DNA from: Armatimonadota bacterium
Lineage (GTDB): Bacteria > Armatimonadota > Fimbriimonadia > Fimbriimonadales > Fimbriimonadaceae
DNA: 64,000 nucleotides
NCBI GenBank assembly: GCA_016789105.1
Contig: JAEURN010000002.1
Location: 62,001 to 126,000 of the forward strand
Direction: 5' to 3'
Below are positions 46,472-49,015 of this stretch, piece after piece. The notes below the pieces were generated by a model, which saw only the letters and a list, made by a program, of their open reading frames with translations, made no database searches and was not told the DNA's origin. The position numbers were made by a program, and so were the translations under genes. Position 1 is the stretch's first letter, and every line of letters starts with the position of its first letter.

Positions 46472-47569
46472 GTGTCAAGGCGCGCGATCGTTATCGTTCT
46501 GGACGGCTGCGGGGCCGGGGCCGCCCCCGACTGTGCCGAATTCGGCGACCCGCCGACCGTCTCCACCTTGAAGAACGTGTGGAACCTGGTCGGCGGGATT
46601 GAAGCCCCCAATCTGGCACAAACCGGGTTCTTGGCCGCCGCCGGAATCGGTAAGCAAACGGGAGCCGCCGGCCGGCTCCGACCCCTGAACCGGGGAAAAG
46701 ACTCGGTCACCGGCCATTGGGAAATGATGGGGATCCCGGTTCCAACCCCTTTCCCGACATACCCGTCCGGATTCCCGGCGAACCTCATCTCTGCCTTCGA
46801 ATCCGCCGTCGGACGGAAAATCCTTGGCAACCGTCCGGCCAGCGGCACCGCCATCGTCGACGAACTGGGTGAAGAGCATTACCGCACCGGCCGGCCCATC
46901 GTGTACACCTCGGCCGATTCCGTCTTCCAAATCGCCGCCCATGAATCCATCGTCCCGATCGGCACGCTTTACGAATGGTGCCAAATCGCCCGGGATCTCT
47001 GCGTCCCGCCCAACAATGTCCAAAGGGTCATCGCAAGGCCGTTCAATGGGGAGCCCGGCAGGTTCCAGCGCACCAACAACCGCAAGGATTTCCCCGTCAT
47101 CCCCCCACCCAATCTTTTGGACCGGCTGGCCGACCGTTTTGGCCCGGCTTGCGGAATCGGCGTCGTGCCCGAACTGTTCAGCGGCCGCGGTTTCCGGCCG
47201 GGCCGCCGAACCCAATCCAACCCGGAACACTGGCTGGCCCTGCAACAGGCGTTGGATGCCGATTGCCAGTTCGTCTTTGCCAACTTCGAAGACACCGACA
47301 TGCTCTTTGGCCACCGCAGCGACCCAGCGGGATTCGCCAATTGCCTGGAACAGTTCGACGGCTACCTGGGTGCCCTCCTCGCGCGGCTGAGCGCAGACGA
47401 CCTGCTCATCCTGACCGCCGACCACGGCAACGACCCCACCGATGGTTCCACCGACCACACCCGCGAATATTCGCCGCTGGCGGTGGTCAACTCCCAATTC
47501 ACCCAGTGGCTGGGAGACCAAGACGGTTTGGCCACGGTCGGACGGTTGGTCGAGGGTTGGTTGGAGTAA
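46472..47569 (+). CDS. deoB: Phosphopentomutase
   Basis: The 365-residue alkaline-phosphatase-superfamily enzyme has VIVLDGCGAGAAPDCAEFGD (metal Asp), GKDSVTGHWEMMG with the catalytic Thr, YTSADSVFQIAAHE, FANFEDTDMLFGHRSD and ILTADHGNDPT with metal ligands. DeoB converts ribose or deoxyribose 1-phosphate to the 5-phosphate in nucleoside salvage. The start is GTG 46472; TAGCCT (46459-46464) lies 7 nt before it and there is no Shine-Dalgarno, another leaderless case. No other nucleoside genes are adjacent. Confidence 0.93.
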   Translation: MSRRAIVIVLDGCGAGAAPDCAEFGDPPTVSTLKNVWNLVGGIEAPNLAQTGFLAAAGIGKQTGAAGRLRPLNRGKDSVTGHWEMMGIPVPTPFPTYPSGFPANLISAFESAVGRKILGNRPASGTAIVDELGEEHYRTGRPIVYTSADSVFQIAAHESIVPIGTLYEWCQIARDLCVPPNNVQRVIARPFNGEPGRFQRTNNRKDFPVIPPPNLLDRLADRFGPACGIGVVPELFSGRGFRPGRRTQSNPEHWLALQQALDADCQFVFANFEDTDMLFGHRSDPAGFANCLEQFDGYLGALLARLSADDLLILTADHGNDPTDGSTDHTREYSPLAVVNSQFTQWLGDQDGLATVGRLVEGWLE

Positions 47570-47612
47570 AGTTTTGAGATTGTTAAACTTGTGCTAAATG
47601 TCACGCACTCCC

Positions 47613-47639
47613 TTGACAACTCTCCGGGGGGGGGATACT
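47613..47639 (+). promoter_or_regulatory. Promoter with G9 tract in the spacer
   Basis: A consensus -35 TTGACA (47613-47618) and a -10 GATACT (47634-47639) are separated by 15 bp, two less than optimal. The spacer is mostly a run of nine G (47626-47634, the last G being the first base of the -10). Slippage to G10 or G11 would restore 16 or 17 bp. This is the layout of phase-variable promoters such as Neisseria porA. It drives the lipoprotein and pseudopilin genes that follow. Confidence 0.6.
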
Positions 47640-47650
47640 CGCGTTCGGTG

Positions 47651-47908
47651 ATGCCCCTGAAAACAAAAAAGACCTTCTTGCTAACGGGATTCTTCATTCT
47701 TGCCTTGACGGCCTGTGGTTCAAATTACTCTGGATATACCGATGTTGACTACTGCCGGTGGCAACAATTCTCCCCGTATGAAACATGTATGAGTGCTGTG
47801 CAAGACTGCCGCGATATCAACCCCAACGACGAAGCAACAATTGGGTGCATGGCTTCTCAAGGATATCCCGTTCCAGAAGAAGGCGAGGTGCCCGGATCAG
47901 GAAACTAG
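47651..47908 (+). CDS. Small Cys-rich lipoprotein
   Basis: The 85-residue product starts MPLKTKKTFLLTGFFILALTAC, a lipoprotein signal. The mature part has four more Cys (DYCRWQQFSPYETCMSAVQDCRDI, IGCMAS in pieces), so two disulfide bonds are possible, and ends in a flexible Glu/Gly-rich tail. Base composition is lower in GC than neighbouring genes. The stop lies 11 nt before the GTG of a pseudopilin gene, so the two form an operon under the poly-G promoter. Function unknown; a surface decoration or secretion cargo is possible. Confidence 0.65.
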   Translation: MPLKTKKTFLLTGFFILALTACGSNYSGYTDVDYCRWQQFSPYETCMSAVQDCRDINPNDEATIGCMASQGYPVPEEGEVPGSGN

Positions 47909-47919
47909 ACCAAGTTCGC

Positions 47920-48609
47920 GTGGACTCTGCATTGCGACGGGCATTCACGCTCGTTGAAGTCCTTGTTGCCATTTCCATTGTTGCAATCCTCGTTGCGATC
48001 TTGATTGTGATCACCCGTTCCTCAAAGTCTGCGGCAGGTCTATCGGCTTGCCTTTCGGAAATCCACCAGCTGGGCTTAGCCGGCAGGCTCTACGTGGACG
48101 ACTACGACCAAACATTTCCTCCCCACGTCGATCGCCCCATCCGTGATGGCGAGCCGACCAGTGACTGGCCGACGTGGCGGGACAAGGTGTCCCCCTATTT
48201 GGGATCGATGCTGAAGTGTCCCCAAGCGGCCGTTGCCGAAGATGTGCCCAAAAGCTATTTGTGGGGCTATGCCATCAACGATTTGGTCAATCGCACTCTC
48301 TTTGAATCATCTGCAAAAACCCTCGTGCCCAAGGCGGCATCAATCGTCGAGAATCCAAGCGACGTCGTCTTTTTTGCCGACTGCAACCTGTTCGATATCA
48401 CACTGTCGTCAACGGATGAATCGCGGATGCACCTCGTTGCGCTTGTTGCCGTTGACCTGCTCAAAAAATACCGCCATCTCCCGCCTGCCTCCACCCGCCA
48501 TAACGGTGGCGCTAACTATTCTTTGATGGTTGGGTCAGCAAAGATGATCCGCCCTGTGCAATTGAAAGGCAAGGACGGCCGATTTACCTTTTTCATTCCC
48601 CGGGGCTAA
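47920..48609 (+). CDS. Pseudopilin-like protein with variant C-terminal motif
   Basis: From GTG 47920 the product reads MDSALRR and then AFTLVEVLVAISIVAILVAILIVITRS, a prepilin leader with Ala before the cleavage site and Glu at position +5. The globular part (229 residues in all) resembles the DUF1559-like pseudopilins: LSEIHQLGLAGRLYVDDYDQTFPP. Where the family usually ends with an H-x9-DG motif, this one has H-NGGANYSLM-VG, so the Asp is Val. The frame continues upstream over the lipoprotein, but no earlier start is plausible. It follows the lipoprotein by 11 nt. Confidence 0.75.
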   Translation: MDSALRRAFTLVEVLVAISIVAILVAILIVITRSSKSAAGLSACLSEIHQLGLAGRLYVDDYDQTFPPHVDRPIRDGEPTSDWPTWRDKVSPYLGSMLKCPQAAVAEDVPKSYLWGYAINDLVNRTLFESSAKTLVPKAASIVENPSDVVFFADCNLFDITLSSTDESRMHLVALVAVDLLKKYRHLPPASTRHNGGANYSLMVGSAKMIRPVQLKGKDGRFTFFIPRG

Positions 48610-48616
48610 GATTCTG

Positions 48617-48700
48617 CCCGTTCCGCCCGGGGGCAGAGCCCTCCGCCTGCGGAGGGCGAGGGATTGGCCTTGGGCCCGGCGGAACGGGTTCCGCAAGGCC
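48617..48700 (+). repeat. Structured intergenic repeat, copy A
   Basis: This non-coding stretch folds into an outer stem (CCCGTTCCGCC 48617-48627 with GGCGGAACGGG 48678-48688) enclosing GGGGCAGAG, an inner palindrome CCCTCCGC-ct-GCGGAGGG (639-656 of this kilobase), CGAGGG and GGCCTTGGGCC (48666-48676). The same core occurs at 57012-57068 on the other strand with different but still complementary stems. An alternative fold pairs GGCCTT (48666-48671) with AAGGCC (48695-48700) around a GCGGAA/TTCCGC stem, so two structures compete. It lies just upstream of the ftsB-like promoter. Confidence 0.6.
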
Positions 48701-48754: not shown

Positions 48755-49015
48755 ATGAACCGCATCGCTATCACCCTCTTCACTGTCGCCGCGGCGGTCG
48801 CCGTAGGCCTGTTTTTCAGCCGCAGTTCTTGGCAAACGGTCCAAACGCAGCGCAAAGAGTACAAAACCCAGGTCGCTGAATCCCGCAAAATCCAAGCTGA
48901 CCGGGCGGAACTCCTCCAAAGGTCGGCCGAGCTCGAATCCCCCTTCGGCAAAGAGCAACGCGCTCGCGAACTCGGGTACCGCAAACCCTACGAAAAGCCG
49001 CTGAACTTGGACTAG
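48755..49015 (+). CDS. FtsB/DivIC-like septum formation protein
   Basis: The 86-residue protein has one N-terminal membrane helix (IAITLFTVAAAVAVGLFF), a coiled coil (residues about 25-65, QRKEYKTQVAESRKIQADRAELLQR in parts) and the typical end FGKEQRARELGYRKPYE, where FtsB/DivIC proteins have an ARE-x-LGY-x-x-x-x-E motif. This fits a divisome component that links FtsL and FtsQ. It has a consensus TATAAT (48720-48725) and a Shine-Dalgarno AAGGAAGG 4 nt before the ATG. There is no cell-wall cluster around it. Confidence 0.75.
   Translation: MNRIAITLFTVAAAVAVGLFFSRSSWQTVQTQRKEYKTQVAESRKIQADRAELLQRSAELESPFGKEQRARELGYRKPYEKPLNLD

Follow-up and report, generated by a model that had tools for sequence, protein, structure and literature searches.

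A candidate porA-type phase-variable promoter with a poly-G spacer ahead of a lipoprotein and pseudopilin cassette, and a set of similar promoters in Fimbriimonadaceae (Armatimonadota)

The promoter-like sequence at 47613-47650 of the 64,000-nucleotide stretch of DNA analyzed here (the window) is, on comparison with related sequences, very likely a porA-type phase-variable promoter and a member of a family-wide set of switches located before secreted-protein cassettes in the Fimbriimonadaceae (Armatimonadota). By the mechanism proposed, slipped-strand mispairing at replication would add or remove G residues at 47626-47634 within a population, and each gain or loss would alter the distance between TTGACA and GATACT and set the use of the promoter by the housekeeping sigma factor. 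The promoter would be weak or off in the assembled state (G9, spacer of 15 nt) and on at G10-G11 (spacer of 16-17 nt). The switch would govern transcription of an inserted two-gene cassette, whose first gene encodes a small Cys-rich lipoprotein and whose second encodes a type IV pseudopilin; both products may act at the cell surface. We further consider it probable, at a somewhat lower level of confidence, that Fimbriimonadaceae carry lineage-wide simple-sequence-repeat contingency loci, in which near-leaderless promoters with slippery poly-G spacers control mobile two-gene cassettes for secreted proteins that evolve fast (the undescribed A+B pair, Cys-rich protein plus pseudopilin, and caspase-like proteins), a source of combinatorial variation at the cell surface outside any host.

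The features of the locus are listed in Table 1. The preliminary description had presented the hexamers as 15 bp apart with a G9 run as spacer. The distance of 15 nt and the G9 tract were both confirmed, but seven non-G bases come first and the last G belongs to GATACT, such that the spacer in the assembled state is ACTCTCC plus G8 (47619-47633). With a G11 tract at 47626 the spacer would reach 17 nt. An in-frame GTG is present at 47648, 8 nt past the -10 hexamer, and the transcript is predicted to have almost no leader. G9 is a modest tract length; the 64-kb window has no other G or C homopolymer of 9 or longer. The GATACT hexamer is weaker than the TAnnnT -10 of most related sites. A standard promoter scan demanding spacers of 16-18 nt did not pick up the site, because its spacer is 15 nt.

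Table 1. Features of the promoter, the cassette and the flanking genes (window coordinates).
Feature	Position	Strand	Remarks
deoB, phosphopentomutase	46472..47569	+	NCBIfam PRK05362, E=2.5e-117; upstream neighbor, outside the cassette
-35 hexamer TTGACA	47613..47618	+	perfect sigma-70 consensus; kept in the G001 homologue
Spacer, non-repeat part ACTCTCC	47619..47625	+	5-13 nt in 42 phylum sites
Poly-G tract G9, proposed slippage-prone switch element	47626..47634	+	G11 in G001, G8-G17 in related promoters
-10 hexamer GATACT	47634..47639	+	first base is the last G of the tract; GATAAT in the G001 homologue
Gap from -10 to ATG, 11 nt	47640..47650	+	predicted start site about 7 nt past the -10
Small Cys-rich lipoprotein, 85 aa, lipobox LTAC	47651..47908	+	homologue in G001, E=1.3e-9
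Type IV pseudopilin, 229 aa, GTG start, motif RAFTLVEV	47920..48609	+	PF07963, E=2.5e-6
Inverted repeat, 14-nt arms, 93% complementary	48617..48688	+	behind the pseudopilin gene, 3' side of the inserted cassette
divIC/ftsB-like gene	48755..49015	+	downstream neighbor

The two cassette genes are separated by 11 nt. The lipoprotein matched no Pfam or NCBIfam family, and the pseudopilin scored 27.3 bits against PF07963 (cut-off 21.2), consistent with an N-terminal prepilin cleavage/methylation motif. The surface location proposed for the cargo in the preliminary description is thus favored by the lipobox and the prepilin motif, as well as by a strongly hydrophobic N-terminus in 32 of 33 proteins encoded behind poly-G promoters (compared to 18 of the 49 window genes). 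A match to the lipoprotein in another genome (G009, locus L004, E=1.5e-4) was rejected as spurious, as it lies inside a much longer frame for a hydrophobic protein and is without a tract. The inverted repeat behind the pseudopilin gene is possibly a terminator, a repeat element or the trace of a mobile element; an Rfam search of the cassette returned no family. Further downstream are the divIC/ftsB-like gene and yifB.

Comparison to members of the same genus suggests how the cassette came to its present position. In congeners G005 and G006, divIC follows directly after deoB with a gap of about 64 nt, and therefore the window cassette is best read as an insertion between these two genes. The region upstream of the divIC/ftsB-like gene (TATAATCAC...GCCAAGGAAGGC) is conserved in congeners and appears to mark the 3' side of the insertion. 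A third congener, G001, encodes the lipoprotein homologue followed by a pseudopilin, which is the best match to the window pseudopilin outside its own genome (E=8.9e-36) and likewise stands behind a poly-G promoter. This G001 promoter reads TTGACA-AAAAC-G11-T-GATAAT-gcttaac-ATG with a spacer of 17 nt, in agreement with the earlier proposal that one or two extra G would bring the window spacer, now at 15 nt, to its optimum. The G001 pair is on another contig and its flanking genes differ from those of the window; by this comparison, cassette and promoter appear to travel together. The species of the window is represented by one genome, and deoB identity to its nearest relatives is no higher than about 65-68%.

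The conjunction of -35 hexamer, tract, -10 hexamer and start codon exceeds chance, whereas poly-G alone does not. The genome of the window (G000) has 46 G-runs of at least 8, and poly-G in the window falls below the shuffle expectation (4 matches vs a mean of 18 in shuffles). When nearly all G-runs of at least 8 outside contig ends were examined in this genome, a -10 hexamer and start codon were found downstream in 7 of 7 tracts preceded by a -35-like hexamer (TTGA[CT][AT]) compared to 1 of 35 tracts that lacked it (Fisher p=3e-7). The lone exception (L084, G000:C8:196500-201900, minus strand) has G15 followed by TATTTT-TTCTGC-ATG. Two open reading frames like an A+B pair are found behind this tract, with no clear -35, and the locus may be a decayed member of the promoter class. 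The pattern TTGACW-N2-14-G8+-TANNNT was found at 42 sites in 291 genomes of the phylum, far more often than the reversed control pattern (0 sites). The spacer was 14-19 nt in 39 of these 42 sites and tract lengths clustered at 8-11; the spacers are centered on the sigma-70 range and spread more widely than would be necessary for a fixed promoter. In 101 related genomes (counts deduplicated by hand), TTGAC-N2-14-G8 outnumbered its C8 version about threefold (roughly 50 vs 16) in the family. A chance origin of the conjunction was rejected by the shuffles, the reversed pattern and the poly-C pattern.

In at least 13 genera of Fimbriimonadaceae (named records include ACE_ARM1, UBA2017, UBA2362, UBA6659 and Uphvl-Ar2), the flanks of these tracts align as TTGAC[AT]-N4..11-G8..17-TAgcgT-N6..9-ATG. 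The tract abuts the -10 hexamer and the ATG is usually 6-9 nt past the -10, which puts the predicted transcription start at or beside the start codon; therefore, most transcripts are expected to have little or no leader. Spacers across the class range from 14 to 24 nt, so only some of its promoters would be near the optimum at any moment. Poly-G promoter sites are absent from many genomes of the family.

Three types of cargo recur behind the poly-G promoters of the family. The first is a fast-evolving pair in which the gene for a secreted protein A of 140-180 aa precedes that for a larger secreted protein, B. The second, to which the window cassette belongs, pairs a small Cys-rich secreted protein with a pseudopilin encoded behind it; this type was also found in G001, G014, G029, G032, G035 and G042, and in G050 with one intervening gene. 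The third comprises secreted proteins of 320-395 aa with HG...C motifs (L049, L110, L061, L120 and L121), which by eye are caspase- or gingipain-like. The A, B and caspase-like proteins gave no significant Pfam match. Most pseudopilin operons are without a tract, including those of 28 of the 30 best homologues of the window pseudopilin. A pseudopilin alone is thus no predictor of a tract, because Fimbriimonadaceae have dozens of pseudopilin genes per genome (at least 34 scored matches in many genomes). Six further poly-G promoter loci before a secreted A+B pair were observed in the genome of the window (including L097 at G000:C4:152000-156500, L087, L068, L089 and L098); the A gene is broken into two short frames at L098, and the homologue match at L089 contains an internal TGA. 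Several poly-G promoters (G8-G12) before secreted proteins were also seen in a distant member of the Armatimonadota, G090 (L109, L106, L107 and L108). The G090 cargo resembles repeat (TPR-type) proteins, and these promoters depart from the near-leaderless type in their long leaders, which carry an AGGAGG-like site.

The A proteins belong to a single divergent family, with invariant W24 and P82 and nearly invariant W84 and R144 (alignment A2, numbered by its first sequence), for which no convincing Pfam match was obtained. A profile search of 85 family genomes, in which promoters were ignored, provided 17 further A genes that could be examined. In 6 of these 17 homologues the promoter region contained a homopolymer of 7 or more G or C, compared to about 0.2 expected (p=4e-8). 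Among the A homologues were also one with a long (CT)n array that touches TTGACT (L268, in G021), one whose promoter region has a roughly 20-bp unit repeated in tandem about five times (L253, in G168), one with an interrupted G-rich spacer, and one (L252) with no tract and a plain 17-nt spacer that retains the near-leaderless layout. Such a variety of repeats at one position before members of one gene family is typical of contingency loci and would not be predicted by a fixed structural role of poly-G. Tract length also differs among near-identical related promoters. Two copies in G090 have G12 and G11 with flanks identical at 95 of 96 positions upstream and 99 of 100 downstream, and two tandem copies in the genome of the window have G17 and G9 with flanks identical at 54 of 60 and 51 of 60 positions. 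The porA-like reading of the preliminary description thereby gains comparative support from a shared layout, tract lengths that vary between related promoters, and secreted cargo.

These comparisons also bear on other explanations of the tract. The poly-G may instead be a fixed structural element of the promoter, acting through stiff or A-like DNA or as a binding site for a protein, with length differences that are neutral drift and cause no switching. The recurrence of the arrangement and of the tract position in many genera, together with the clustering of tract lengths at 8-11, would fit such an element. By contrast, the occurrence of poly-C, (CT)n, longer tandem repeats or no tract at all (L252) before homologous cargo genes indicates that the G residues are not required, near-identical promoters differ by up to 8 G, and spacers of 14-24 nt would, if fixed, include non-functional promoters. 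We therefore regard a fixed element as unlikely, although it is the least improbable of the alternatives to a phase-variable promoter.

A role of the G run in translation, by which slippage would alter a Shine-Dalgarno-like site or a coding frame, is less probable still. The frame from a GTG at 47591 is open through the tract and the G-rich stretch 16 nt before the ATG could weakly pair with rRNA, but 16 nt is too long for Shine-Dalgarno spacing, the signal peptide begins at the ATG past the tract, and related sites nearly always show tract, -10 and then an ATG 6-9 nt on, which places the tract upstream of the predicted transcript. A Shine-Dalgarno or in-frame tract was thus rejected on spacing and comparative layout. 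Least probable of all, and already largely refuted, is a random G9 between promoter-like hexamers that arose by chance or as an assembly artefact. The abundance of G-runs in the genome is in its favor, as are long G runs (67-71) at contig ends that look artefactual; against it stand the Fisher test of the conjunction, the phylum-wide count over the reversed pattern, and the homologous G001 cassette of identical layout. Three contig ends of the window genome (L031 end, L073 start and L088 end) fall within or close to stretches of 44-71 G, which are probably sequencing or assembly artefacts and call for caution with homopolymer lengths.

A phase-variable promoter as favored here would use a switch mechanism that is already known from porA and tp0126. 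In porA of Neisseria meningitidis and tp0126 of Treponema pallidum, a poly-G tract lies between the -35 and -10 and a total spacing of 17 is optimal, while a promoter homopolymer also modulates transcription of the surface-protein genes opc (poly-C, N. meningitidis) and tprL (T. pallidum) (PMC7864442). The window site resembles porA in its poly-G between the hexamers, a predicted best spacing near 17 and predicted surface cargo, resembles tp0126 in geometry and in the predicted dependence on total spacing, and resembles opc and tprL in having a homopolymer in the promoter of a putative surface-protein gene (PMC7864442). It differs from porA in belonging to another phylum with environmental, mostly uncultured members, in a tract that in its class is flush with or overlaps the -10, in a start codon within about 6-12 nt, and in a lipoprotein plus pseudopilin cassette as cargo, with switching that is here predicted from sequence. 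The cargo of tp0126 is an OmpW homologue, and its length variation and reporter effects were measured, whereas those of the window site are predicted from sequence. In opc the tract covers the -35 and in tprL part of the -10, so it is not the spacing that varies. The novelty lies in the phylum, in a set of loci that spans the family, in the near-leaderless layout and in families of cargo that are still unnamed; our literature search, which covered a minority of subscription journals, found no report of phase variation in Armatimonadetes/Armatimonadota.

Families of contingency loci are a feature of host-associated bacteria, as in the phasomes of Neisseria and Helicobacter. The Fimbriimonadaceae promoters are similar to these in the many loci per lineage, fast-evolving secreted cargo and several repeat types on homologous genes, and differ in that the tracts are in near-leaderless promoters and not in reading frames. 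Slipped-strand promoter switches come mostly from host-adapted pathogens, with immune pressure as the usual explanation. For an environmental phylum, a conserved set of switches points to some other driver, for which phages, predators and attachment to surfaces are candidates. The switch may also serve as an entry to unnamed families of secreted proteins (A+B, and Cys-rich plus pseudopilin), because it marks genes worth randomizing in expression. If the proposal is correct, a population would show mixed tract lengths at the switch loci, in contrast to coding G-runs of the same length.

Among the matches listed in a pattern scan of named genomes, which provides examples and not frequencies, similar poly-G spacers were found in many other phyla, so the design is broader than Armatimonadota. 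In Saccharibacteria and Omnitrophota, prepilin-like genes were observed immediately behind poly-G spacer promoters (L130, L142, L149 and L172). Other such promoters in Phycisphaerales/Phycisphaerae (L131, L137 and L177, with L137 and L177 alike) precede genes for secreted proteins of 370-390 aa and are possibly another lineage-wide set of switches.
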